Shown in pieces: positions 1,782 to 29,000 of a DNA stretch of 35,156 nt. The stretch covers positions 1-35,156 of the forward strand of contig NEWP02000034.1 of NCBI GenBank assembly GCA_002869895.2, in the 5' to 3' direction. Origin of the DNA: Nitrospira sp. CG24E. GTDB lineage: Bacteria > Nitrospirota > Nitrospiria > Nitrospirales > Nitrospiraceae. Below the pieces are notes generated by a model, which saw only the letters and a program-made list of their open reading frames with translations, ran no database searches and was not told the DNA's origin. Each line of letters begins with the position of its first letter. Position 1 is the first letter of the stretch. A program made the position numbers and the translations under genes.

Positions 1782-4700
1782 CTACTCTGATTTAGCTATG
1801 TGATGAGATGGCACATCCAGCGGTTGATCCACTGCTTGAATGGATCGGCTTCGCCACAAGGCATACAGGACCGGAATGACGATCAGCGTCAGGATGGTCG
1901 AGCTGACCATACCTCCGATCATCGGCGCAGCGATCCGTTTCATGACGTCGGCGCCCGTGCCGGTGGTCCACATAATGGGGAGCAACCCGCCCATAATCGC
2001 CGCGACCGTCATCATCTTCGGGCGCACTCGCTGGACTGCGCCCTCCATGATGGCTTCGCGCAAGTCATGAACCGTCGCCATGCGGCCTTCACGTACCCGC
2101 TGCTCATAGGCCTCGTCGAGATAGACGAGCATGACGACCCCCGTCTCTGCAGCCACGCCGGCCAGGGCGATGATGCCGACCCAGACCGCCACGCTCATGT
2201 TATAACCCAGATAGTCGAGATACCAGATGGCCCCGATTGCGGCGAAGGGGACGGACAGGAGCACGATCAGCGACTTCACGAGCGAACCGAAGTTGAGATA
2301 GAGCAGCAAGAGAATGATCCCGATGGTGACTGGGACGACCAGCCTCAACCGTTCCTCTGCCCGCACCAGATGCTCGTATTGACCAGCCCAGATCAGCCGG
2401 TATCCAGGAGGTAATGCCACCTTGTCTCGCACCGTACGCTGAGCCTCTTCGACGTAGCCCCGAAGGTCACGGCCGCTGACCGAGACCGAAACTAAGCCGG
2501 CCAAGGCCCCTGCCTCATCCGCAAGCGACGGCGGCCCCTGCGTAATGACCAGATCGGCAACTTGTGCGAGCGGAATCTGTGCCCCGCCCGGCGTGGGAAT
2601 GAGCACCCGCTTGAGCCGATCCGGGTCGTCACGCAGCTCACGCTTATAACGCACATTGACGGGATACCGTTCCCGCCCTTCAACCATGGTCGTCACGGTC
2701 TCGCCGCCGATGGCCGAGGTGATCAACGCTTGCACGTCTCCCACCGCCAGACCATAACGGGCTGCTTCGCGTCGGTTCACGATGATGTCCAGGTAATAGC
2801 CTTCATTCAGCCGCTCGGCAAAGGCACTTTTTGTGCCCGGCACAGTCCCCAAGACCTGTTCGATCTCAATGCCGATGCGTTCGATCGTCTTCAAGTCCGG
2901 TCCCAGGACTTTGATGCCGACCGGGCTTCGCACACCGGTCGTGATCATCTCGGTGCGAGTCTGAATCGGCATCCACCAGATGTTCGGAAATCCTGGAATA
3001 TGCAGTTTGGCATCCATCTCATCCAAGAGCCGATCCCAGGTCATGCCGGGCCGCCATTGCGCTTCCGGTTTGAGAGTCACTGTGATCTCCGCCATGCCGA
3101 CAAAAGCCGGATCGGTGGCAGTCGGGGCCTTCCCCATTTTTCCGAATACCCGTTCCACCTCCGGGAAGGTCGTGAGCAATTGATCCTGGACCTGCAAGAC
3201 CTTGGCAGATTCAGGAATCGAAAGGCCTGGGACAGTGGTCGGCATGTAGAGAATAGTCCCCTCATTGAGCGGCGGCATGAATTCCGCGCCGAGGCGGGAA
3301 AAGATCGGCACGGTGAATCCCACCACCACCACCGCCAATGCGAGCGTCAGCCACCGGACGCGCAACGCGACAGAAAGGATAGGCCGATACAAGGCGATTA
3401 ATAGTCGGTTCAACGGATTCTTGACCTCCGCTCTGATGCGCCCTCTGATAAGCAAAACCATCAGGACAGGCGCCAAGGTCACAGACAGGGCTGTAGCGAA
3501 CAACATCGAGAAGGTCTTGGTGTAGGCCAGGGGCGTGAACAGTCGGCCTTCCTGCGATTCCAATGCGAAGATCGGCAGGAACGAGACGGCGATTACGAGC
3601 AACGAGAAGAACAGAGGACGGCCGACTTCTTTGGCTGCTGCAATAATCGTCTCGATCCTGTCTGTGTGTGGAGACTGCTCCAACCGCTTGTGCGCGTTCT
3701 CCACCATGACAATGGCGGCGTCCACCATCGCGCCGATAGCAATGGCAATCCCACCGAGCGACATGATGCTGGAGGTGATGTTCAAGTAGGCCATCGGGAT
3801 GAAGGCGAGCAGCACAGCCACCGGCAAAATGAGAATCGCCACCAGGGCGCTACGCAGGTGAAAGAGGAAGACGATCGCGACCAGGCTGACGATGATACTC
3901 TCCTCCACGAGCTTCTCGCGGAGCACGGCAATGGCCCGATGAATGAGATCGGACCGGTCATAGGTGGGCACAACGTGGACACCCTTCGGCAGGGCCGGTG
4001 TAATTTCATCCAGCCTGGCTTTGATCCGTTCGATCACGGAGAGTGCATTTTCTCCGGCCCTCATGATCACGATGCCGCCGACCGTCTGCCCCTTGCCGTC
4101 CAACTCGGCGACACCCCGCCGCTGGTCCGACCCGATTTGGACATGGGCGATATCCCGGATCAGGATAGGCGTGCCGCGGCCATCGGTTCCGACGGGGATC
4201 AGCTCGATATCGTCGATCGAGCGCAAGTAGCCCCTCCCTCGAATTACATATTCCGTCCCGGCCATTTCCAAGACACGGCCGCTCACTTCCGCATTGCTGT
4301 TCCGGACCGCCTCGATGATCGTCTTAATCGGTAGCTTGTAGGCAGCCAACGTGTTCGGATCCACTTCGATTTGATACTGTTTGACGAACCCGCCGACCGC
4401 CGACACTTCTGCGACACCTGGCACACTTTCCAGCTGGTAGCGCAGATACCAATCTTGCAGACTCCGGAGCTGCGCCAGGTCGTGCGTGCCGGACTCATCG
4501 ACCAGCGCATACTGATAGACCCACCCGACGCCGGTCGCGTCGGGACCGAGCGCCGGCGAGACACCGGAGGGCAACCTCCCAGTCAGCTTCTGCATATATT
4601 CCAATACACGACTCCTGGCCCAATACAGGTCCGTCCGGTCTTCGAAGATCACATAGACATAAGAAACCCCGTATTCTGAGACCCCCCGCACCCGTTTGAC

Positions 4701-4934
4701 CCTTGGCCCAGCCAGCAGAGAGGTGACGATCGGATAGGTGACCTGGTCTTCAATCAACGTAGGACTGCGCCCAGGCCACTCGGTGTAGATGATCACCTGG
4801 GTATCGGACAGGTCAGGAATCGCATCCAGCGGAACTCGAAATCCCGCCCACAGACCCCCCGCCGCCAATAGCAGTACGCAGAGAATGACCAGGATCGGAT
4901 TGCGGGCGCTTCCTTCAATGAGTCGTGCAATCAT
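1782..4934 (-). CDS. cusA: Cu(I)/Ag(I) efflux RND transporter CusA
   Basis: A 1050-residue inner-membrane RND proton antiporter of the heavy-metal-efflux class, full length for the family. It is the pump of a CusCBA complex that drives monovalent copper or silver from periplasm or cytoplasm to the outside. The three methionines that carry metal in E. coli CusA have counterparts at M564 (LYMPTTVPG), M614 (VGMAEITVTLKP) and M663 (TEMITTGVRSP). The TM4 motif GAMVDAAIVMVENAHK fits the CusA-like group rather than the divalent CzcA group. Its ATG lies six bases after the cusB stop, so translational coupling is likely. Part of its 3' region is duplicated at the left edge of the window. Confidence 0.95.
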   Translation of the reverse strand: MIARLIEGSARNPILVILCVLLLAAGGLWAGFRVPLDAIPDLSDTQVIIYTEWPGRSPTLIEDQVTYPIVTSLLAGPRVKRVRGVSEYGVSYVYVIFEDRTDLYWARSRVLEYMQKLTGRLPSGVSPALGPDATGVGWVYQYALVDESGTHDLAQLRSLQDWYLRYQLESVPGVAEVSAVGGFVKQYQIEVDPNTLAAYKLPIKTIIEAVRNSNAEVSGRVLEMAGTEYVIRGRGYLRSIDDIELIPVGTDGRGTPILIRDIAHVQIGSDQRRGVAELDGKGQTVGGIVIMRAGENALSVIERIKARLDEITPALPKGVHVVPTYDRSDLIHRAIAVLREKLVEESIIVSLVAIVFLFHLRSALVAILILPVAVLLAFIPMAYLNITSSIMSLGGIAIAIGAMVDAAIVMVENAHKRLEQSPHTDRIETIIAAAKEVGRPLFFSLLVIAVSFLPIFALESQEGRLFTPLAYTKTFSMLFATALSVTLAPVLMVLLIRGRIRAEVKNPLNRLLIALYRPILSVALRVRWLTLALAVVVVGFTVPIFSRLGAEFMPPLNEGTILYMPTTVPGLSIPESAKVLQVQDQLLTTFPEVERVFGKMGKAPTATDPAFVGMAEITVTLKPEAQWRPGMTWDRLLDEMDAKLHIPGFPNIWWMPIQTRTEMITTGVRSPVGIKVLGPDLKTIERIGIEIEQVLGTVPGTKSAFAERLNEGYYLDIIVNRREAARYGLAVGDVQALITSAIGGETVTTMVEGRERYPVNVRYKRELRDDPDRLKRVLIPTPGGAQIPLAQVADLVITQGPPSLADEAGALAGLVSVSVSGRDLRGYVEEAQRTVRDKVALPPGYRLIWAGQYEHLVRAEERLRLVVPVTIGIILLLLYLNFGSLVKSLIVLLSVPFAAIGAIWYLDYLGYNMSVAVWVGIIALAGVAAETGVVMLVYLDEAYEQRVREGRMATVHDLREAIMEGAVQRVRPKMMTVAAIMGGLLPIMWTTGTGADVMKRIAAPMIGGMVSSTILTLIVIPVLYALWRSRSIQAVDQPLDVPSHHIAKSE

Positions 4935-4940
4935 GATGGA

Positions 4941-6671
4941 TTACATGCCGCCGGACACCGAGAACTGAAATTTTTCGGCAACTGGCGCTTTCCCTGGTAC
5001 CGTCGCGTTGACCGTCACCACCCAGGTGCCACCCATGCCGAACAGCACATTCCCTTCATAGACCCCATCCTTGATATGGCGAACCGCCGCCTTGGAGTCC
5101 ATCATGCCCGGCATCGGCATCGTATAGACGAACACAACTTGTGCATTGGTCACCGGCTTGCCTGCTGAATCTGTGATCGTCAGCTTGAGCGGCGCCATAC
5201 CAGGCCTGAGGGTTTCCGATACCGTCGCGAGAGAAAGAGTGAGTCCGTTCACCTGATGGGTCTGAGCCCCTGAAGCGCTTCCCTTTCCCATGTCCATGCC
5301 CGGCATATTTTCCATCCCCTTCATGCCTTGCATGCCCTTCATCCCCTCCATACCCTCCATACCCTTCATGTCTCCCATCGGCATGCCTTTCATGCCCTCC
5401 ATACCCCCTTGCCCCATGTCCATCCCTTCCATCTTGCCCTCATACGCGCCGCGCATCTGCCAATCGCCCATGCCGATCCGGCCCATCATGGCCTGCATGC
5501 TCGACGCCGAAGTCAACTTACTTTCCGCGTCCAACAGAAAATTGGCCGAGGTGACGACCTGATCCCCTTCCTTGATTCCCTCCAGCACTTCAACAGAATC
5601 CTGGCTCCTGCGGCCTAGCTTGACCTGGTAGGGGGTATAGGATCCTTCGCCACGATCCAGAAACACAATTTGGCGAAGTCCCGTGTCCAGCACCGCTTCC
5701 TTGGGAACAACCAACATCCTCGCCGCATCGGTCACCAAGGTGACGGTTCCGAACATGCCGGGCTTCAGCCTGAGTCCAGGATTCGGCAATTCCAACCGTA
5801 CCCGCACGGTGCGGGCCTCGCTATTCAGCGTGGGATAGATGTAGGAAACCTTGCCTTGAAACGTTTCTCCTGGATAGGCGGCGAAGGTGACGGACGCCGG
5901 CTGGTTGAGCGTCACCGCCGCAACCTCGGACTCGTAGATGTCGGCGGAGATCCAGACCTTAGAGAGATCCGCCACCTCATACAAGGTCGTACCAGGCTCC
6001 ACATATTTTCCCGGAACTGCCTCGCGCTTCATGACGATCCCGGAGGACGGGGCGGCGACCATCATCACCGGCTCCGCCTTATCTCGACGTTTCAGTGCAG
6101 CAATTTGCTGATCCGTCACATCCCATAGTCGGAGGCGTTCCCTCGTACTGGCCACGAGGGAATCCGCATTGGCCTTCACTTCAGCGAGGGGACTGGCAGC
6201 CAACCGGCCCTGCATGTTCACGGCAAGAAGATACTCGTCCTGCGTAGCCAGAAGATCCGGCGAGTAGAGAGTAAAGAGGGGTTCGCCTTTGCGGACGGGG
6301 CGACCGATCGAGTCGACAAAGACCTCTCGCACCCACCCGGGAGTCTTCACTGTGACCTGCGTGAAACCACGTTCGTCGTAACCGACCGTACCGACCGCGC
6401 GAATTTCTTGCCCCAGTACCTCGACGCTAGCCGGCGCGCTACGGACTCCGATCAATTGTTTCATCACAGCCGGAACCACCACTGCCCCGGACGGCGACGC
6501 TGACATGCCTTGCATGCCCTGCATAGACATCCCCTTCATATCCATTTGCTTCATATCACCCATCTCAGAGACCTGTCCGTGGGCGGCGAAGAAGCCGGCG
6601 GCAACTCCGGCAATCACGCCGATCGCCACAGTGCCGACGATGAAATGTTTCCTATATGGATGCTGGTCCAT
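4941..6671 (-). CDS. cusB: CusB-type periplasmic adaptor with Met-rich repeat and FixH-like tail
   Basis: The membrane-fusion protein of the Cus pump (576 residues), linking CusA to CusC. A signal anchor lies near residues 10-30. A first Met-rich patch (GDMKQMDMKGMSMQGMQGM) follows. The centre is a standard adaptor with a barrel-sandwich and beta-barrel region (about 75-385). Next comes a second methionine block of 17 Met in about 51 residues (DNA 5281-5430), then a C-terminal beta domain of about 100 residues that resembles FixH/YtkA-type domains. The ATG at 6671 was chosen over a GTG two codons upstream because AAGGAGG lies at the right distance from the ATG and runs up to the GTG. No separate cusF metallochaperone is visible, so the Met-rich blocks may do that job (inference). 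Confidence 0.93.
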   Translation of the reverse strand: MDQHPYRKHFIVGTVAIGVIAGVAAGFFAAHGQVSEMGDMKQMDMKGMSMQGMQGMSASPSGAVVVPAVMKQLIGVRSAPASVEVLGQEIRAVGTVGYDERGFTQVTVKTPGWVREVFVDSIGRPVRKGEPLFTLYSPDLLATQDEYLLAVNMQGRLAASPLAEVKANADSLVASTRERLRLWDVTDQQIAALKRRDKAEPVMMVAAPSSGIVMKREAVPGKYVEPGTTLYEVADLSKVWISADIYESEVAAVTLNQPASVTFAAYPGETFQGKVSYIYPTLNSEARTVRVRLELPNPGLRLKPGMFGTVTLVTDAARMLVVPKEAVLDTGLRQIVFLDRGEGSYTPYQVKLGRRSQDSVEVLEGIKEGDQVVTSANFLLDAESKLTSASSMQAMMGRIGMGDWQMRGAYEGKMEGMDMGQGGMEGMKGMPMGDMKGMEGMEGMKGMQGMKGMENMPGMDMGKGSASGAQTHQVNGLTLSLATVSETLRPGMAPLKLTITDSAGKPVTNAQVVFVYTMPMPGMMDSKAAVRHIKDGVYEGNVLFGMGGTWVVTVNATVPGKAPVAEKFQFSVSGGM

Positions 6672-6697
6672 GTGCACCTCCTTGATACGTGATGATG

Positions 6698-7987
6698 TTA
6701 GCTCTGCCGATCGAGCGTGACACCGACAACCTGCTCAAGTTCCGCCAACCTATACTGGCGGTCCACGAGAGCCTTGAAATACTCAAGCTGAAACCCCCGC
6801 CAGGTCCGCTGGGTATCGATCAGGTCTAAGAAACCCGCTTTGCCCGCACGATACCCGACGCGCGCCGATTCCAGGCTCTGCTCGGCCTGTGGCAAGATGG
6901 TGGTGCGGTACAACGTCGCCACTTGGTCAGTCGCCCGGAGCTTGGCCAGGAGGTCGTTGATCTGAAACCTGGTCATGTTTTCTAAGGTATGTTGCTGTGC
7001 CTGCGCGACCGAAACTGCAGCCTCTGCTTCCTGTACTCCCGCGTCGTACTTCGGCTTAGTCCAAAACGCGAACGGGAGACTCATTGCCACATAGGCGCCG
7101 AATCCATCGTTAGCCTGATAGTTCTGGAAGCGCTGAAACGCCACGTTGAAGTCCGGGTAGTATTGACGCTGGGCCAGCGCACGGGACTGCTCGCTCCGCT
7201 GCACATCGAGCTCGGCGGCTTTCAGTTCAGGCCTGTCGTTTAGCGCGAGACTGTGCAGTTTATCGACGGACTCATCGAGTGGCAGTTGAGCGGGCTCCTG
7301 CGCCAAGCCCAAGGGTGTTGAAGGATCCTGATCGAGCAGCGTGTTCAGCACCGCTGCAGCAGTCTTGCGACGCTGTTCCAGGACGGGGAGATATTGAAAC
7401 AGCAGGGAGAGTTCGACTTGGGCCTTGAGGACATCGGCCTGACTTCCTTTGCCTGCGCGGAACTTCGAGTTTGTAATCTCCACAAACTGTCTGAGCAGTT
7501 CAACCTGTTCATGATGAATCTGGACCGCCTTCTGCGCGAGAAAGAGATCGTAGTAGGCCTGCTTCAGACGAGCGATGAGTTCCCGTTCCTTTGCTCGGAC
7601 CAACTGCTCGGTCATATCGGCCGAACGGCTCGCCACATCGCTTTTGAGGGAACGCTTGCCGGGAAAGGGGAGGTTCTGCGAGAGACCAAAAATGCTGTTG
7701 TCTGATCTTGTGGCATTGAACGACTGAGGGAAGTTCCATAACTGGACGGACAGGATTGGGTCATCCAACGACCCAGCCTGGGTAATCCGGCTCGTGGCAA
7801 CTTCCCACTGCTTGCGCGTCGCAACAAGCTCGGGATTTCGAGCCAGAACCTCTTGGATCAATTCCGGCAACACCAGCCTGTTGCGCAGCGTAGGATCAGG
7901 ATCCTGCGCCCTCGACAATCCGCTGCTCAGAAGCAGCATCAGCACTGACGCAACCATCACCCAATGACGTCGGCTATTCGATCTCAT
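6698..7987 (-). CDS. cusC: TolC/CusC family outer-membrane efflux protein
   Basis: A 429-residue outer-membrane channel component of the Cus system. A cleavable signal peptide covers about residues 1-28 (hydrophobic core VMVASVLMLLLSSG, then SRAQ). Two outer-membrane-efflux repeats follow, with the usual long helices rich in Ala, Gln, Glu and Arg and the phrase GLSQNLPFPGKRSLK near the start of the first repeat. The ATG at 7987 is preferred to one 51 bases upstream because GGGAGGT stands seven bases before it and the signal peptide then begins correctly. It is the first pump gene and is followed by cusB after 26 bases. Confidence 0.92.
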   Translation of the reverse strand: MRSNSRRHWVMVASVLMLLLSSGLSRAQDPDPTLRNRLVLPELIQEVLARNPELVATRKQWEVATSRITQAGSLDDPILSVQLWNFPQSFNATRSDNSIFGLSQNLPFPGKRSLKSDVASRSADMTEQLVRAKERELIARLKQAYYDLFLAQKAVQIHHEQVELLRQFVEITNSKFRAGKGSQADVLKAQVELSLLFQYLPVLEQRRKTAAAVLNTLLDQDPSTPLGLAQEPAQLPLDESVDKLHSLALNDRPELKAAELDVQRSEQSRALAQRQYYPDFNVAFQRFQNYQANDGFGAYVAMSLPFAFWTKPKYDAGVQEAEAAVSVAQAQQHTLENMTRFQINDLLAKLRATDQVATLYRTTILPQAEQSLESARVGYRAGKAGFLDLIDTQRTWRGFQLEYFKALVDRQYRLAELEQVVGVTLDRQS

Positions 7988-8144
7988 GGCAATGACCTCC
8001 CAAAGTTCCCACATGTTCAAAGCCCTGTCTGTGCTCATGCCCTAGGTGGCCAAGAGAACTGGACGATAGGCCGGTCGCTCAAACTGAGCGTCGAACGGCA
8101 CACGTGATAGCAAAGGAGCGATTACGCGGTATGGGAGAGGAAGA

Positions 8145-18417: not shown

Positions 18418-18957
18418 AGTAAAGAACCCCGCCCTTCCGGGCAGGGCTTTCTAGAAGAGGCCCAATTGTTCAGCCCCTTTCTTCTTCGCCTCATGAAACC
18501 GAATGTACTTCTTGATCACCTCGGCGGTCACTTGGTCACCCACCGTTCGAACAAAATACCCATCCTCCCCAAATTCCCCGCCCCACAGGTGCTTGCGAAC
18601 CTCCGGAAACTCTTCCCGAATCTCCTTCGCCCTAACGGCTTTCATCAACCCCACCACCTGTCCAATCGAATACTTCGGCGGAACACTCAGAAACAGATGC
18701 ACCTGATCCTTGTCTACTTCCATCTCCTCAATCTCAAATCCATGATGCCCGGCAAGGTCCTGAAACAATTCCGTCACCCGTTGCCGAATCGCCCCCTGCA
18801 ACACCCACTTGCGATATTTCGGTGCCCACACCAGATGATAGCGCGTGTCATACACACCGTGGCTGGCTCGCTGGACTCCCCTGCCAGCACTCTACCGGAT
18901 TCCTGCTGCCGGAGGCAGCACGCATTTTTCATCCCCGCCCTCCCGGGCGGGGCATTC
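18418..18957 (-). mobile_element. IS200/IS605-type insertion element (tnpA only)
   Basis: A single-gene element with subterminal hairpins instead of terminal inverted repeats. The left end has the perfect hairpin CCCCGCCC-TCCC-GGGCGGGG (18933-18952) and an inner one, TGCTGCC-GGA-GGCAGCA (18904-18920). The right end has CCC-GCCC-TTCC-GGGC-A-GGG (18428-18446). The right boundary near 18418 is supported by the matching sequence at 35134-35156, which diverges at the same point. The left boundary is approximate. No tnpB accompanies it. Confidence 0.75.
18451..18855 (-). CDS. tnpA: IS200/IS605 family transposase TnpA, probably inactive
   Basis: A 134-residue Y1-type HUH transposase that would move single-stranded DNA by a covalent tyrosine intermediate. 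The core YHLVWAPKYRKWVL and the tail IKKYIRFHE with the candidate nucleophile Y117 are present. The HUH metal site reads DQVHLFLS, with Q51 in place of the first histidine; one base change would account for it. The only start is a GTG (Val-Tyr-Asp), with a stop 15 codons upstream and no clear ribosome binding site. The missing histidine predicts loss of nicking unless another element supplies transposase. Confidence 0.88.
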   Translation of the reverse strand: MYDTRYHLVWAPKYRKWVLQGAIRQRVTELFQDLAGHHGFEIEEMEVDKDQVHLFLSVPPKYSIGQVVGLMKAVRAKEIREEFPEVRKHLWGGEFGEDGYFVRTVGDQVTAEVIKKYIRFHEAKKKGAEQLGLF

Positions 18958-23099: not shown

Positions 23100-23687
23100 C
23101 TATCTGAGGTGGCTGCCGGCTCCCATAAGTAACAGCATGGGAATCGACAACATAAAGTTGACTCGCGAAGCAAGAAGGGCAGTCCGGCCCCACTGAGCCA
23201 TTTCAGGTGGCGCTGGGGTCCCCTGAGCCGCGGCCGTCACAGCTGCAATAATCCTCTTCTGGTTCGGCCAAATAATCGCATGGACATTGGCCATCATAAT
23301 GATGCCTAAGAGCCCACCGATTCCCAGCGCGATCGCGCCTGTTCCACCTCTTTGATACATGTAGAGGTACAACACAATCCCGGCAAGCACCGTGACCGTC
23401 GCGCCATGACGGAACCAGTTCAACGCCGCCGGCATCAACTTGGGAATGACGATATTTTTGGTTGGACCGTCCAAACTCTTCAAGAACGCCGCATTGACCA
23501 GATTGAAAAAATACAACATTCCGATCCAGACGATTCCGGCCAAGAAATGGACCCAGCGAAACACCAACCCTACCCAATCGACATCGCCGGCTCCTATGCC
23601 GGCCATGCCCAGGTACCCCATCATCAGCACGATCGCGAGCGCAAACCCTACGCTCATTGTTTGCATCGGACTCTCTAGAAATTTCAT
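23100..23687 (-). CDS. PuuD-like (urate oxidase N-terminal type) membrane protein
   Basis: A 195-residue integral membrane protein with about five hydrophobic segments (near 12-32, 40-66, 92-112, 118-140 and 168-190). It has the conserved patterns FRWVHFLAGIVWIGMLYFFN, LNWFRHGA and NVHAIIWPNQKRII, the hallmarks of the urate_ox_N/PuuD family. In PuuD this domain is fused to a cytochrome c and oxidises urate. Here no haem motif CxxCH is present, so it is the membrane part alone. It may use a separate cytochrome or have another role. Neighbours are mdh upstream and nuoF downstream. Confidence 0.8.
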   Translation of the reverse strand: MKFLESPMQTMSVGFALAIVLMMGYLGMAGIGAGDVDWVGLVFRWVHFLAGIVWIGMLYFFNLVNAAFLKSLDGPTKNIVIPKLMPAALNWFRHGATVTVLAGIVLYLYMYQRGGTGAIALGIGGLLGIIMMANVHAIIWPNQKRIIAAVTAAAQGTPAPPEMAQWGRTALLASRVNFMLSIPMLLLMGAGSHLR

Positions 23688-23849: not shown

Positions 23850-24788
23850 CTAGGCCATCAGACAATCGACCGTGATACAAAGTTCCCGCACCGCGCTCGC
23901 AGAGACCACCAATGCCGCTCGTTCCTCAGCCGTCAACTCATACTCAACCACCTGTTCCACCCCACCACGACCCAGCCGGACCGGCACTCCGACGACAACA
24001 TCCTTTAATCCATACTCACCCTCACAGAGCACCGCACAGGGCAGCACTCGTTTCTGGTCCTTCACGATCGCTTCGACCATACTCACAGCCGATGCCGACG
24101 GGGCATAAAACGCGCTGCCCGTGTTCAATAGACCTACGATTTCGGCGCCCCCCTCGCGTGTCCGCTTCACAATCGCCTCCAACCGCTCCTCCGATATCAG
24201 CTCTGAAATCGGTTTACCCCTCACCGTTGTGTAGCGTGGCAGCGGTACCATCGTGTCACCGTGCCCCCCCAACACCATCGCAACCACATCAAGGCCCGGC
24301 ACGCTCAATTCCGCGGCGATGAAGGCACGCATACGAGCGGAATCGAGCACTCCCGCCATCCCCAGGATGCGCGACTTCGGCAGTCCACTCACACGGCGCG
24401 CCACATGAACCATGGCGTCCAGCGGATTGGTGACAAGAATCAGAATGACGTTCGGCGATCGAGAGACCAGCTCGGAGACGACCGATTGCACGATCTTCGC
24501 ATTCGTGGTCAATAACTCGTCGCGACTCATTCCCGGCTTCCGTGGGATTCCAGAGGTAATAACCGCCACCGACGAGCCGGCCGTTTCATCATAGCCGTTG
24601 GTGCCCACCACGCGGGTGCTATAGCCACAGACCGGCCCGGCCTGTGTGATATCGAGGGCCTTGCCTTGCGGAACCCCCTTGACGATGTCGACCAGCACGA
24701 CTTCATACTCGTCTTTCTCGGCCAGTCGCTGCGCCGTCGTGCCTCCGACGTTCCCCGCGCCCACCACTGTAATCTTCGGTCTCCCCAT
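23850..24788 (-). CDS. mdh: malate dehydrogenase
   Basis: Interconverts malate and oxaloacetate with NAD in the TCA cycle. 312 residues, LDH-like type. The nucleotide fold begins [20 protein letters not shown]. Substrate arginines lie in [12 protein letters not shown] and [12 protein letters not shown], and the catalytic His in [16 protein letters not shown]. The ATG at 24788, with GAGGTGAGGTA before it, was chosen; the open frame extends 15 codons upstream through a spacer repeat. The upstream gene is the unknown 136-residue protein. Confidence 0.95.
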
Positions 24789-24806
24789 TACCTCACCTCG
24801 TGAAGT

Positions 24807-24824
24807 GTGAAACGTAAAACGTGA
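24807..24824. repeat. spacer repeat GTGAAACGTAAAACGTGA
   Basis: Seventeen of 18 bases match part of the longer repeat at 25287-25304. It sits just ahead of the mdh ribosome binding site. Confidence 0.5.
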
Positions 24825-24859
24825 CGCGTACAATCTCCTTACGCCTCACCCCTAACTCC

Positions 24860-25270
24860 TCACGCATGTTCATGTTCTGTCCAGCCCGCGACTTTAAAGT
24901 TGATCGTGCAGACGAAATTGTCTCCGTCATAAAAGTTTACTTTGATCTTCTTCTTGCCATAAGTTTTACCCAGGAACGCATCCGGATCATCGATCAGTTC
25001 CTGATACCCGCCCGCCGGATACTCACCGAGATCGTGAAAGACCACGATCATCCCCACTTTGACCTCTTGAAGAATCTTGGCCCAACAACGGGGATAGACC
25101 TCCCAAAATTTGGCCTCGATCATGTCCTTCGTCGGTTCCTGGCGATCCTCCCCCGGCTTGATGGGCTGGGCAAACTTTGCCAACCGACGGACGTAGGGAT
25201 ACTGATGCCCTGTAAACAGCTTGTGCAGCCAAGGCGGTACGGTCGGTCTCTCTGTTGAATTCGTCGTCAT
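24860..25270 (-). CDS. unrecognised 136-residue soluble protein
   Basis: I cannot assign a family. The protein is charged and soluble, with no signal peptide or membrane segment. Notable phrases are WLHKLFTGHQYPYVRRLAKFA, split here as WLHKLFTGHQ and YPYVRRLAKFA, then KFWEVYPRCWAKILQEVKVG, MIVVFHDLGEYPAGG and a beta-rich end KKIKVNFYDGDNFVC. It lies between the large VWA protein (upstream, 107 bases away) and mdh on the same strand. Repeats occupy both flanks. The ATG at 25270 follows AAGATG rather than a strong ribosome binding site. Confidence 0.65.
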   Translation of the reverse strand: MTTNSTERPTVPPWLHKLFTGHQYPYVRRLAKFAQPIKPGEDRQEPTKDMIEAKFWEVYPRCWAKILQEVKVGMIVVFHDLGEYPAGGYQELIDDPDAFLGKTYGKKKIKVNFYDGDNFVCTINFKVAGWTEHEHA

Positions 25271-25280
25271 CTTCTCTCAC

Positions 25281-25383
25281 ACGTGAAAGGTGAAACGTCA
25301 AACGTGAAATGTTTGGGTCCGGATTGCTGCGTTATTATTCATCCTCTTCGCACTTTTCACCTTTTACGTTTCACCTTTCACGT
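25281..25383. repeat. inverted pair of ACGTGAAAGGTGAAACGT repeats
   Basis: ACGTGAAAGGTGAAACGT at 25281-25298 is repeated exactly in inverted form at 25366-25383. The spacer is about 67 bases, so an mRNA stem of at least 18 pairs can form between the VWA gene and the unknown gene. The VWA stop codon lies inside the right arm. Confidence 0.75.
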
Positions 25384-28300
25384 CGTCAGCCGCTGATAAA
25401 TTCTCGGCAATCGCAGCGGCAGGGCTTCGAGCCGGTCAATGACCGCGAACTGCACATCCCCATACATTCTCCGGACATACCCATCGGCATCCCGATCGAT
25501 CGTGATACAAAACGGATGCACTCCCCGCTGACGCGCCTCCCGTAACGAGACCTTTGTGTCTTCCAGTGAATACTCGTCTTTGTAGCCGTCGTCGAGCGGA
25601 CGTCCATCGTTGATCAGGACGAGCAACCGCGTCCGCGCTTCCCGCGCAAGCAATTTGGCAGTGGCATGGCGAATGGCTGCCCCATCACGGTTTTGCCGCA
25701 TGGGAACCAGTCCGCCCAAACGCTGTGCGGCCTTCCCGCCCAACCGATCGTCGAAATCCTTCATCACAAGAAAGTCCACCTGCCCTCGGCCCTGGCCCGA
25801 ATAGCCATAGAGCGCATATTGGTCTCCGACTGCCTCAAGCGCTTCGCACAAGAGCACGAGTCCCTCTTTCTCCAGATCGATCACGCGGCGGCCGTTGTCC
25901 AATTGACGGCTGGTTGACCCGCTCACGTCGACCAGAAACGCGGCCGCGACATCCCGTTCTTTTCGTTCCCGCCGGACGTAGATCCGGTCCGATAGGTCGA
26001 TACCAGCCGCCCGCTCGGAACACATACGAACCGATGCATCCACATCGAGTTCATCGCCATCGGCTTGGCCTGGCACACGCCGCAATCCCGGCGGCCGCAG
26101 ACCTTCGAAGAATCGTCGAAGGGCCGAGACCTCGCTCCCGTGCGCGCTCAACGTGTCACCGACGATATCTCCGTTCCCTTCCTCTGCGGCACGTTCCACA
26201 ACACGACACCAGTTAAGGCGATAGTCGTTGATCCCTTGATCCCATTCCGGATAACGCACTGAACGGTCGCCTGGTCCAGCATGATCAATCGGCGTCGGCT
26301 GTTCGACTTGTAAAGCCAAAAGTTCTTCCACGTGAGAGGGTAACTGCTGCCCCCCGGCAAAACTGTCGTTCTCTGTCTCCGCGCTCATACCCTCACGATT
26401 TCGTTGGCCCTGCGCTGAAGACTCCTGTACTCCACCGGCAGCGCTTGCCATTCGCTCGACGTCTTCCGATTGTTTTTGATCGTCCGATGCGCCTTGATCC
26501 TGTTGCTGCTGGCGAATGAACTCCGGATTCATCGCCCCTCGATAGACCCAGTTGGTGACGGGACGATAGGCGTCACTCGTCTCTTCGGAAGCAGAGGGAC
26601 CCACCCCCAGATCTTCTGACTCGTGATCGGCCTGATCCGCCTTGATCATCCCCTCCTTCGGCATCAGCAACTCTTCGAGCCGCACATAGAGAGTATGGGC
26701 CACCCGTACGGCCTCTTCTGCTGTGGCTGCGGGGGATAGAATCGCTTGACATATCGACCAGAGGGTGGCGATTTCCCCTTTGATAGCTTCATGAATCGCG
26801 ATAGACTCCGACCCGGCGGTCGACAGTTGAAGCAATTGATCGACTACGAGTTCTTTAACGGTCAGCCCATGCGTCAGCGACCTTGTCGTGATCCCCTCCC
26901 GCGCAAATTGCTGGAGATCCCGCCGAAGTCCCGGATACTCGCGCTGCAGCAGAAACTCCACCCGCGCATCTTCTACGAGCATCCACAAATCTTGGATCAG
27001 TCCCGGATGAGGATACAGGCGAAACAACGAGGCCAAGGAATCCGGCGCCGCCAGTTTGATGCGGCCATACCTCTGGCACAAAACCAGGACGAGGTCTGAG
27101 AGCGGTCCAAGAGTCAACCGGTACGTCCCAAACTCCACATGGCCTGCTTCGTGAGCCGCCATCACCAGATACAAGCGCCTATTCGCTTCGGCAGTGGGAT
27201 AGCGACGGAGCAGCGCCGGCAGCGAGATGCTGCGTCCATCCTGACTCACCGTGGCCCGCGCAGACGGCTCGTGGCTCAGGGAGTCTGGGACTGCTTGAAT
27301 CGCCAGGTCCGCTCCACAAAGCCCTTGTACGAAGAGCTTCAAGGTACGGGCCACCTGCCGGAGCGACACACCACTCAAAGCCTCTTCCACCGATGTGAGG
27401 GCCTTCTGCGACTCCAAGGAAAAATAGGCCCTGGCTCCATCCACACTGTATGCCAAGACCTCCATCCCACCGGTAAACCAGGCCTCAAAGCGAGCCATAG
27501 ATTCGGCTGACTCGCCGATGATACTCATGAGTTCAGGAGCACGTCGCAAATAGGCCAGCGCCGTTGCTGCATCACGTTCTGCCACCAAGGCCCCATACTG
27601 CAATACTTTCAGCCGACGGCTCTCATTCGGCAGCATGCGAAGAAGACGGGGCGATTCCGACAACCAGGCTATACCAGATGCTTGATCGCGCTCAGCAAGC
27701 AACGACCCGACCATAACGACCTTGGCCCTGGTCGATTGATCGTCCACATCTCCGAGGATGAGCGGACTCGTGCGGAGAAATTCGATGGTCCCGAAATAGT
27801 CGGTCTTGCCGAAACTGTTCTGAGAAATGAGTTTCAGCCCGAACATCGCCCAGGCTCTGGCATCCTGAATGGGTAACACTTGGGCGACCGCAGGAATTTT
27901 TCGGATGTACTCCAACGCAACGACAAAATCGACCTGTGTCAGTTCGAGCCCGATCTCTAACCAGCCACCCAGTTGATCCGCGGAGACAACCGCCACCAAC
28001 TCCGGAGATACACGGAAAAACTCCAGTGCGATATTCGCATCCTGCTCGGCCAGCTCCAAAGCAGTTTTCAACACCAGCGATCGAACCGGCGCTTGCTCGA
28101 TGAGACCCAGAACCAGAGGGCTCTCCTTGAAAAACTTGAGCCCAATCGCCCCAGACGATTCGGCAAGTGCCGTCCCCAGATCCAGCCAGGCTACCACATC
28201 GCTGAGTCGACCCCTCTGTTGCAACTCAGGGAACGATTCGATCGCGGCGCAAGCCACCTTAGGCGAGACTTCAGCTAACTCATCGAGTACCAGCAAGACG

Positions 28301-28425
28301 CCTTCCGCCTGCTTCGGTTTTTCATTGGCTTCGACGAGACGAAGGAGCAGGTGCTGAGCCGTCGCTGGCCCCAGCTCCTCTGCCAATTTGGCAATCAATC
28401 GCTTATGGGAATCCGGCATCTCCAC
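25378..28425 (-). CDS. large VWA-domain protein, NorD/CbbO-like
   Basis: A 1015-residue protein. Residues about 1-330 are helical repeats of about 32 residues with recurring phrases such as ALEYIRKIPAV, TALAYLRRAPELM and GLKFFKESPLV. The middle holds YLVMAAHEAGHVEFGTYRLT with an HExxH motif at 425-429. An acidic, Gln-rich region follows. The C-terminus is a von Willebrand A domain with MIDAS motif DVSGSTS starting at D833. NorD and CbbO proteins share the last two parts and work with MoxR-type AAA+ ATPases (NorQ/CbbQ) to activate metalloenzymes. No MoxR gene is visible in this window. The target enzyme is unknown. Confidence 0.85.
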   Translation of the reverse strand: MEMPDSHKRLIAKLAEELGPATAQHLLLRLVEANEKPKQAEGVLLVLDELAEVSPKVACAAIESFPELQQRGRLSDVVAWLDLGTALAESSGAIGLKFFKESPLVLGLIEQAPVRSLVLKTALELAEQDANIALEFFRVSPELVAVVSADQLGGWLEIGLELTQVDFVVALEYIRKIPAVAQVLPIQDARAWAMFGLKLISQNSFGKTDYFGTIEFLRTSPLILGDVDDQSTRAKVVMVGSLLAERDQASGIAWLSESPRLLRMLPNESRRLKVLQYGALVAERDAATALAYLRRAPELMSIIGESAESMARFEAWFTGGMEVLAYSVDGARAYFSLESQKALTSVEEALSGVSLRQVARTLKLFVQGLCGADLAIQAVPDSLSHEPSARATVSQDGRSISLPALLRRYPTAEANRRLYLVMAAHEAGHVEFGTYRLTLGPLSDLVLVLCQRYGRIKLAAPDSLASLFRLYPHPGLIQDLWMLVEDARVEFLLQREYPGLRRDLQQFAREGITTRSLTHGLTVKELVVDQLLQLSTAGSESIAIHEAIKGEIATLWSICQAILSPAATAEEAVRVAHTLYVRLEELLMPKEGMIKADQADHESEDLGVGPSASEETSDAYRPVTNWVYRGAMNPEFIRQQQQDQGASDDQKQSEDVERMASAAGGVQESSAQGQRNREGMSAETENDSFAGGQQLPSHVEELLALQVEQPTPIDHAGPGDRSVRYPEWDQGINDYRLNWCRVVERAAEEGNGDIVGDTLSAHGSEVSALRRFFEGLRPPGLRRVPGQADGDELDVDASVRMCSERAAGIDLSDRIYVRRERKERDVAAAFLVDVSGSTSRQLDNGRRVIDLEKEGLVLLCEALEAVGDQYALYGYSGQGRGQVDFLVMKDFDDRLGGKAAQRLGGLVPMRQNRDGAAIRHATAKLLAREARTRLLVLINDGRPLDDGYKDEYSLEDTKVSLREARQRGVHPFCITIDRDADGYVRRMYGDVQFAVIDRLEALPLRLPRIYQRLTT

Positions 28426-28559: not shown

Positions 28560-29000
28560 ATGGCCGAACCCACGCAAGTGAATCTCGACAAAATGTGGAA
28601 GTATGTGAAGGGATTTGCGGAGAAGAGCGGGACGACCATGCATCCCACTCCCGCAGTCACCGAGGCCGTAGTCAAAGGCTTGGCGGTGCACATGGATGAA
28701 CTGGGTAAGCCCCTTTGCCCATGCAATTTCTACAAGGATAAACAGGCAGAAGCCAAGCTCCGCCGCTGGATGTGTGCGTGCGACGAAATGCAGATTTACA
28801 AATACTGCCACTGCCTCTTATTTGTGCGGGAGGACGGCCTTCCAATCACAGAGTATCTTCCGGAAGGCCACGAAGGACGGGAAATCTATGGCACCGTCAC
28901 AGATCCAACTCCAGACAAAGGCCGAGCCCTCAAACACAAGGCTCTTGCCGCATCGACACCTTTGGCCGAAACGCCAAAATCCTCTACACCCACTTTGTAA
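28560..29000 (+). CDS. ferredoxin:thioredoxin reductase catalytic subunit
   Basis: A 146-residue protein whose 4Fe-4S/disulfide centre follows the exact family pattern CPC-x16-CxC-x8-CHC (CPCNFYKDK at about 53, CACDEMQIYKYCHC at about 72). It passes electrons from reduced ferredoxin to thioredoxin disulfides. A Pro/Thr/Lys-rich tail of about 30 residues extends the family core. AAAGGAG lies six bases before the ATG. The variable subunit gene is not adjacent, so it may be encoded elsewhere or be absent, as in some non-photosynthetic bacteria. It is divergent from the VWA gene. Confidence 0.95.
   Translation: MAEPTQVNLDKMWKYVKGFAEKSGTTMHPTPAVTEAVVKGLAVHMDELGKPLCPCNFYKDKQAEAKLRRWMCACDEMQIYKYCHCLLFVREDGLPITEYLPEGHEGREIYGTVTDPTPDKGRALKHKALAASTPLAETPKSSTPTL

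Follow-up and report, generated by a model that had tools for sequence, protein, structure and literature searches.

Comparative sequence analysis makes it quite probable that the class Nitrospiria, whose members include nitrite-oxidising and comammox Nitrospira, shares a three-protein remodelling machine. Its components would be an AAA+ ATPase of the CbbQ/NorQ type, a long VWA protein akin to NorD and CbbO, and a class-specific adaptor, P2, encoded beside the VWA gene. The trio is near-universal, occurs in one copy and marks the class, yet the two textbook targets of such machines are unrecognisable in the genome of Nitrospira sp. CG24E. The window, by which we mean the whole 35,156-nucleotide stretch analysed (positions 1-35156 of contig NEWP02000034.1 of this organism), provides the numbering for all features in Table 1, including that of the CbbQ gene beyond its end.

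Table 1. Features of the VWA-P2 locus and of the same contig beyond the window
Feature	Positions	Strand	Basis or remark
VWA co-chaperone (NorD/CbbO-like), 1015 aa	25378..28425	minus	Pfam VWA, NorD structure match, AlphaFold2 model
P2, 136-aa partner	24860..25270	minus	Conservation; no Pfam/NCBIfam/PADLOC family
Malate dehydrogenase (MDH), third in VWA-P2-MDH order	23850..24833	minus	Order conserved within the taxonomic order; deeper families lack it next to P2
Ferredoxin:thioredoxin reductase catalytic (beta) chain	28560..29000	plus	Divergent from VWA gene (two families); more likely a neighbour than a machine component
CbbQ/NorQ-type ATPase (AAA_5 + CbbQ_C), 272 aa	35341-36159, beyond window	minus	Same contig

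The VWA gene is a single open frame of 1015 codons with a GTG start, and its product, as the sequence-only reading had proposed, is a NorD/CbbO-like VWA protein that is detected in 59 of the 61 genomes of the order. It is laid out as helical repeats (residues 1-336), an N-domain (about 345-590) that contains the previously noticed HEAGH motif at residues 425-429, a disordered linker (about 591-720) and a VWA part (721-1014). Pfam VWA matches residues 829-982 (E 5.5e-6), the NorD structure 9qhd aligns over residues 710-1013 (E 3.4e-51), and the PDB entries that rank highest, by sequence as well as by fold, are NorD structures; CbbO matches reach E 1e-52 over the VWA part and are weak (E 8e-4) at residues 334-386. 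Homology to NorD/CbbO covers the C-terminal ~300 residues. The earlier claim of about 10 helical repeats rests mainly on the AlphaFold2 model, which places 19 helices within residues 1-336 (pLDDT >85 for most of them); these make up about nine helical hairpins, near the number proposed. Self-BLAST of residues 1-345 found no sequence repeat, and weak, offset second matches occur in some relatives. The MIDAS that had been assigned to the VWA domain departs from the canonical form, with DxSxS (833-837) and D940 kept but with N912 of the NRDG loop (912-915) standing where relatives have threonine, and with D914 nearby.

The same reading described the protein as being without a MoxR partner, and here it was mistaken. 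The nearer (3') end of the CbbQ gene lies 185 positions past the last base of the window, and the partner appeared to be lacking because the window edge falls short of that gene. CbbQ is the sole CbbQ_C protein of the genome, and it is present in 58/61 genomes of the order and in all 16 further-tested class genomes, 15 of them outside the order. Its H2i motif, GRYLLKGQET, fits GRxLL/IxxxxT and recurs in 24 of 25 aligned CbbQ sequences, the exception being a Miltoncostaea plasmid protein; NorQ grips the finger of NorD through this motif (PMC13036017). The CbbQ and VWA genes of CG24E are 6.9 kb apart with plus-strand genes between them, and families f3 and f4 have them at distant places or on separate contigs. 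Because the two genes do not form one operon, their pairing here rests on the uniqueness of CbbQ and on deeper relatives, where CbbQ-VWA-P2 stand in that order on one strand in 9/14 deep regions (families f7, f9 and f10). In families f8 and f6, CbbQ adjoins the VWA gene in two regions (L207 and L208) and is separated from it by one 121-codon frame in a third (L209).

The 136-codon frame on the same strand as the VWA gene had been noted as a neighbour that might act with it, and its conservation establishes it as a gene. P2 identity is 61-88% across most of the order and 47-49% in f4, where the P2 start overlaps the VWA stop (L083-L085). A single copy is found in 157/163 genomes of the class, compared with 0/232 other genomes of the phylum, the range over which this absence holds. 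In a contig search, the best 80 of at least 158 relatives were all titled Nitrospira or Nitrospirae/Nitrospirota/Nitrospiraceae except for one ‘uncultured Nitrosospira’, and a plasmid search gave two matches, at E 0.5 only. When neighbourhoods were compared across relatives, P2 lay beside the VWA gene in 78/78 informative loci, and this neighbourhood is seen in four families of the order; judged by this constancy, P2 is a true partner of the VWA protein. One class genome that is 94% complete (G228) encodes CbbQ and a long VWA protein with no detectable P2, which suggests that P2 may be dispensable. Two others (G291 and G045) keep CbbQ and are missing both the VWA gene and P2, probably through assembly gaps. 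No family for P2 was found in Pfam, NCBIfam or PADLOC, a Pfam search of 16 P2 members at E 10 gave scattered matches only (best 0.007), and we found no paper describing P2 or the trio in the openly available literature.

The P2 model has an alpha-beta-beta-alpha-beta-beta order. When it was compared with the PDB in Foldseek, the six leading rows all came from RuBisCO entries, their chains being small subunits to judge from the length, with a best E of 0.08 and none at 0.001; against viral models nothing reached E 0.001 or better. The VIA fold comparison gave RbcS a Z of 5.1 (rmsd 3.5 over 66 residues) and transthyretin 4.9; families missing from the VIA list were given no weight as evidence. 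With hhalign, P2 against a profile of 10 RbcS sequences yielded P 0.16 by the tool, and 0.048 (local) and 0.39 (global) by script, while P for unrelated control families came to 0.021 and 0.030, and 1/60 column-shuffled RbcS profiles attained the same score. A permissive P2-RbcS alignment is colinear over residues 23-129. The controls thus lend no support to homology of P2 with RbcS, which we carry forward only within a bold reading; the fold resemblance is weak and the profile similarity is not significant.

The surroundings of P2 vary with depth in the class. The order VWA-P2-MDH holds in four families of the taxonomic order, in much of which P2 is followed by MDH, NuoF, Fer2, PTPS and GTP cyclohydrolase; of these five, f4 has only MDH and the deeper families none. 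A Der/EngA-like GTPase (identified by eye) follows P2 in f7 and f10. A zinc-ribbon coil protein, a membrane cytochrome c and a Usp/rubredoxin/PCP_red protein surround it in f6 and f8, the first two of these lie near it in f5, and the first and third in one f9 region. Because no P2 neighbour is common to all families, the target cannot be deduced from the neighbourhood.

We suspect that the machine works much as its solved relative does. By analogy with the NorQD complex, a CbbQ hexamer would hold one VWA protein by the finger and C-terminus of the latter, whose disordered linker would be twisted and stretched as ATP is hydrolysed. The altered NRDG loop may touch either P2 or the target, and a target-recognition arm may be formed by P2 and the additional helical repeats. 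The trio would thereby mature an enzyme that is probably neither of the two best-known targets, RuBisCO and cNOR. Experimentally defined targets of such machines are few in the literature covered, namely RuBisCO, cNOR and the RavA/ViaA partners.

As far as the CG24E genome allows recognition, the target is neither RuBisCO nor a recognisable cNOR, which agrees with the earlier suggestion that it is not a known one. A search for the RuBisCO large subunit at E 0.001 drew a blank in CG24E; it was matched in 2/61 genomes of the order, and the other 59 show none. The COX1/NOR superfamily was also unmatched at E 0.001 in CG24E, where a very divergent oxidase or NOR could still exist. Of the combination that was to refute the sequence-only reading, the linked MoxR gene exists, but it has no known target and the neighbouring gene is very strongly conserved, so that the combination as a whole does not occur here. 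The target may be a metalloenzyme, and the most plausible candidates are the unusual membrane cytochrome bd-like oxidases, a guess that we would sooner expect to fail than to succeed. Partial PF01654 matches in long frames place such oxidases in 21/21 class genomes tested, and for one of them, from Nitrospira, heme and copper sites have been proposed in the literature. They have no operon link to the trio; CbbQ is missing from one genome with a bd-like oxidase (G066), and two (G074 and G076) have CbbQ/VWA without a clear bd-like oxidase. Co-occurrence of the oxidase and the trio within the class is expected from shared ancestry alone. If the bd-like oxidase is the target, the trio would be its assembly factor and offer a test of the way in which terminal oxidases are put together in these aerobes. 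An extended version, which we consider unlikely, would have P2 as an RbcS-like adaptor kept with a CbbQ/CbbO-like motor where RuBisCO was lost or never present, the trio having been redirected, by way of the altered loop at its metal site, to the maturation or repair of a different key enzyme, with a copper/heme bd-like terminal oxidase as the lead candidate.

Other interpretations account for parts of the data. The trio might service a carbon-fixation or central-carbon enzyme of the reverse TCA cycle, as CbbQO does RuBisCO, with the operon's MDH gene and the slight likeness of the P2 fold to RbcS as traces of that role. The VWA-P2-MDH order, the strength of the CbbO matches, the RuBisCO small-subunit chains that lead the weak fold matches and the description of reverse TCA genes as characteristic of Nitrospiria in PMC11033732 all fit. 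We nevertheless find it rather improbable given that MDH leaves the side of P2 in deeper families, that P2 and RbcS share no significant sequence similarity, and that a sister lineage with reverse TCA genes should carry P2, which no phylum genome outside the class does. A conventional norQD pair, serving to mature cytochrome c nitric oxide reductase in an NO-reducing organism, would explain why NorD structures are nearest, and 22/61 relatives do show COX1 matches that are weak (at E 0.001 or better); PMC11033732 also interprets the presence of norDQ but not norB in a sister lineage as a possible new way of reducing NO. We hold this to be very unlikely: COX1 matches exceed the cut-off in only 6/61 relatives, and the 23 class VWA proteins placed in the tree form their own clade (95/90), apart from NorD and CbbO, with no grouping with norCB-linked NorD found. 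Moreover, the metal-site loop is NRDG in 23/23 of them versus TRxG in 10/10 others, with Asn in all 23 at the position that is Thr in 9/9 other aligned proteins, and 424 residues precede the HEAGH column here versus 116-118 in three NorD. A NOR in disguise was considered and set aside, as the 430-residue frame at the sole weak COX1 match sampled (G032, L104) is, by eye, what we take to be an NnrS-type membrane protein rather than a NOR. Papers count Nitrospira ‘norD/norQ’ among NO-reductase genes, and on our preferred reading of a three-part machine with another target such labels would mislead.

The HEAGH motif raises the idea, to our minds highly improbable, that the VWA protein is a zinc metallopeptidase. 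HExGH is present in 45/46 Nitrospira-type sequences and the downstream E485 is invariant in 23/23 class members, but HExxH is kept in just 15/23 and is missing from the three aligned NorD. Because the other eight have lost it (HKAGH in f4, YQAGY in f7, FQAGH in f10, FQAGF in f11 and FQAGY in f12 are the variants), HEAGH is probably non-catalytic and not a protease site. Least credible is an immunity role, in which P2 would be the third member of a MoxR-VWA ternary conflict system. Three-part systems of such a kind exist, according to PMC8195603, but no effector domain was found on the VWA protein or P2, PADLOC gave no match for either and weak AAA-type matches for CbbQ, and neither effector fusions nor patchy presence among strains was seen; P2 instead behaves as a core gene, in both copy number and identity.

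The three-part machine favoured here can be set against several known systems. One is the orphan norDQ of family 9FT-COMBO-42-15, where norD and norQ are reported to occur without norB in a Nitrospirota lineage (PMC11033732); unlike our system it belongs to a sister class, and P2 is confined to Nitrospiria within the phylum. Genomes of f14, f17 and f20, in which the VWA N-terminal region is short, were not matched by name to that family. An orphan CbbQ/VWA pair on a Miltoncostaea oceani plasmid (L227) includes the best plasmid match (E 5e-68), with a long N-terminal part and HGAGR at the HEAGH position, but this VWA protein is split into two annotated genes and has a TRMG loop, with P2 not recognised beside it. 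The CbbQ-CbbO rubisco activase (Cereibacter plasmid L226) shares the motor and the VWA protein. It differs in that RuBisCO is missing here and in its separate clade, its 257 residues before the HEAGH column and its TRMG loop; CbbO has a perfect five-residue MIDAS, as stated in PMC4660213, and none was found in the class VWA proteins, Asn replacing Thr in each. Compared with NorQ-NorD of Paracoccus denitrificans and Jhaorihella thermophila (9qh6, 9qhd), our system lacks a recognisable cNOR, carries ~300 extra N-terminal helical-repeat residues, has NRDG for TRxG and the extra partner P2, and falls in a separate clade. The two are alike in their CbbQ/NorQ-type motor, long disordered linker and H2i motif, and in a VWA domain that aligns across the finger region and the C-terminal tail.

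The sequence-only reading had left the NorD/CbbO-like VWA protein without a MoxR-type partner, but a CbbQ/NorQ-type ATPase is encoded on the same contig, its gene lying 185 positions beyond the edge of the window (contig positions 1-35156); the partner seemed absent only because the window stops short of it. This 272-residue ATPase is the sole CbbQ_C protein found in a search of the source genome, and its segment GRYLLKGQET is the H2i motif, which in the solved complex grips the NorD finger, according to the portion of the structural report available (PMC13036017). The VWA protein itself has only VWA-type matches in Pfam and no match in NCBIfam, and its residues 710-1013 match the NorD sequences 9qhd and 9qh6 in the PDB (E 3.4e-51). 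An AlphaFold2 model built from 46 sequences (mean pLDDT 75.7, pTM 0.42) places 19 helices in residues 1-336, followed by an N-domain that ends near residue 590, a linker modelled at low confidence as far as about residue 720, and then the VWA domain; the top six PDB fold matches of the model are all NorD chains.

Genes of the window and the ATPase gene beyond its edge (positions on contig NEWP02000034.1)
Feature	Position	Strand	Remarks
RND efflux-type operon	1782-8038	minus	AcrB-family pump, CusB/HlyD-type adaptor with YtkA domain, outer membrane efflux protein
IS200-like Y1 transposase	18451-18855	minus	
195-aa membrane protein (by eye)	23100-23687	minus	resembles urate oxidase N-terminal family PF06181; lies between malate dehydrogenase and a NuoF/Fer2 pair
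Malate dehydrogenase (MDH)	23850-24833	minus	
P2, 136 aa	24860-25270	minus	next gene downstream of the VWA gene, same strand
VWA protein	25378-28425	minus	1015-codon frame, GTG start
Ferredoxin:thioredoxin reductase catalytic chain	28560-29000	plus	adjoins the VWA gene divergently in families f1 and f2
CbbQ/NorQ-type ATPase, 272 aa	35341-36159	minus	AAA_5 E 1.3e-33, CbbQ_C E 1e-32

The small neighbour P2 matches nothing in Pfam or NCBIfam. The earlier suggestion that it goes with the VWA gene was borne out: the two are together in 78 of the best 80 of 158 P2 loci, always on the same strand, and 4-128 bases apart in 77 of these 78, the exception being L110, where a stop interrupts the VWA frame. 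MDH is present in 78 of the same 80 loci, the nearest named of which are Nitrospira genomes (P2 95-96% identical). Wherever the contig extends far enough, each of the order's four families shows the gene order VWA-P2-MDH, and in f4 (L083-L085) the VWA stop is overlapped by the P2 start. In a set of 61 genomes from the order, 59 gave a match for the VWA protein, 58 for CbbQ_C and 53 for P2; this genome count and the locus count are not independent, because many of the 80 loci come from the same species as these genomes. The eight P2 misses are mostly incomplete assemblies, and at least three of them (G046, G049 and G055) have a VWA gene that reaches or nears a contig end. At one locus (L031, genome G010), the VWA match ends at residue 946 with MDH directly after and P2 missing, a deletion or misassembly.

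With a deeper profile, P2 was detected in 157 of 395 genomes of the phylum, once in each: 157 of the 163 genomes of class Nitrospiria, where the available part of one study places Nitrospira (PMC11033732), and 0 of the remaining 232. Fourteen of the latter are shown as 'same phylum', and the other 218 are assumed to lie beyond the class, given that the genome table runs in order of kinship. By sequence and gene order, therefore, P2 appears to be a partner of the VWA protein that marks the class within the phylum.

We compared 14 regions around P2 in the deeper families f5-f10 and f12. CbbQ, VWA and P2 genes follow one another in that order on one strand in nine of them (f7, f9, f10), which we take as the ancestral operon. 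In f6 and f8 CbbQ adjoins the VWA gene with P2 elsewhere (L209 has a 121-codon frame between the first two), and in f5 about 4 kb separates CbbQ from the VWA gene. In genome G228 (f11) CbbQ occurs with a long VWA protein, yet P2 gave no match there, which counts against P2 being indispensable. At five deep loci (L189, L193, L196, L197, L199) P2 occurs with a ~105-aa coiled-coil zinc-ribbon protein, and some of these add a membrane cytochrome c, a Usp-rubredoxin-PCP_red protein and a weakly CopD-like membrane protein.

The P2 model (mean pLDDT 83; five models range 66-83) has a helix-strand-strand-helix-strand-strand core. RuBisCO small-subunit chains head its Foldseek list (E 0.08-0.2), and VIA gave Z 5.1 for one such chain and 4.9 for transthyretin and others. 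Profile comparison with the small subunit was not significant against controls, so that a RuBisCO-small-subunit-like fold may be taken as a lead only.

What might the machine act on? The RuBisCO large subunit occurs in 2/61 genomes of the order, and the COX1 superfamily, which holds NOR, in 22/61 at E 0.001 and 6/61 over the cut-off; searches of the source genome matched neither at E 0.001. These two known targets thus fail to account for a system so nearly universal, although the genome may hold a very divergent oxidase. The accessible text of one study describes the analysed Nitrospira as without a canonical heme-copper oxidase and one of their bd-like oxidases as having putative heme b and copper sites (PMC6606698). 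Since NorQD is described, in the portions available, as inserting iron into a heme-copper-superfamily enzyme (PMC9976466, PMC13036017), it is plausible that a bd-like oxidase is served in a comparable way, and our guess is that this oxidase could be the target. Such oxidases were found in 21/21 class genomes tested, as partial PF01654 matches in long frames with copper-site type and paralogues pooled. Of 14 non-class genomes, G071 and G066 have a clear one and G062 a fragment; the others have full-length CydA-type or weak shorter PF01654 matches, or none. Descent alone could produce this correlation, and no operon link between bd-like oxidase and trio was found. A weak pointer towards the oxidase is that in f5, f6 and f8 P2 adjoins a membrane cytochrome c that is a distant relative (~28-38% identity) of those encoded near bd-like oxidases. 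Targets other than NOR and RuBisCO likely exist, because plasmid-borne CbbQ/VWA pairs lie near an aliphatic amidase (L232:2364-4924), cytochrome oxidase subunit III/IV-type genes and a hemerythrin (L228:2096-5891), and acetolactate synthase (L227:4236-10204).

The trio is real, conserved and of the MoxR-VWA kind, and it is near-universal in the class while neither textbook target is recognisable in the source genome. Our search of the openly available literature found no published account of P2 or the trio. In the parts available, Nitrospira norQ and norD are listed under NO-reductase genes (PMC7193043, PMC6131200), and a sister lineage that has norD and norQ but lacks norB led to a proposal of novel NO reduction (PMC11033732). 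New here are P2 and its co-occurrence across the class, the NRDG loop, and the fact that the class proteins group apart from NorD and CbbO. A maximum-likelihood tree built on 33 VWA domains joins the 23 from the class in one clade (support 95/90), outside which stand cNOR-linked NorD (100/98) and CbbO with a long-branched amidase-linked protein (100/99); these proteins thus appear to be a lineage separate from NorD and CbbO. The base of the CbbQ tree (25 rows) is poorly resolved. HExxH is kept in 15/23 class proteins and lost in f4, f7, f10, f11 and f12, and we therefore do not read HEAGH as a catalytic zinc site. Ahead of its column stand 321-457 residues in the class proteins (321 is L211, cut by a contig end; the next lowest is 373), compared with 101-257 for nine further proteins and 328 for a Miltoncostaea orphan. 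DxSxS and D940 of the MIDAS are kept in every row having letters there. At the third position, all 23 class proteins and 46/46 Nitrospira-type sequences have NRDG, whereas 9/9 non-class VWA proteins and the Miltoncostaea protein have TRxG, so that the class carries a changed metal-site loop rather than a perfect MIDAS.
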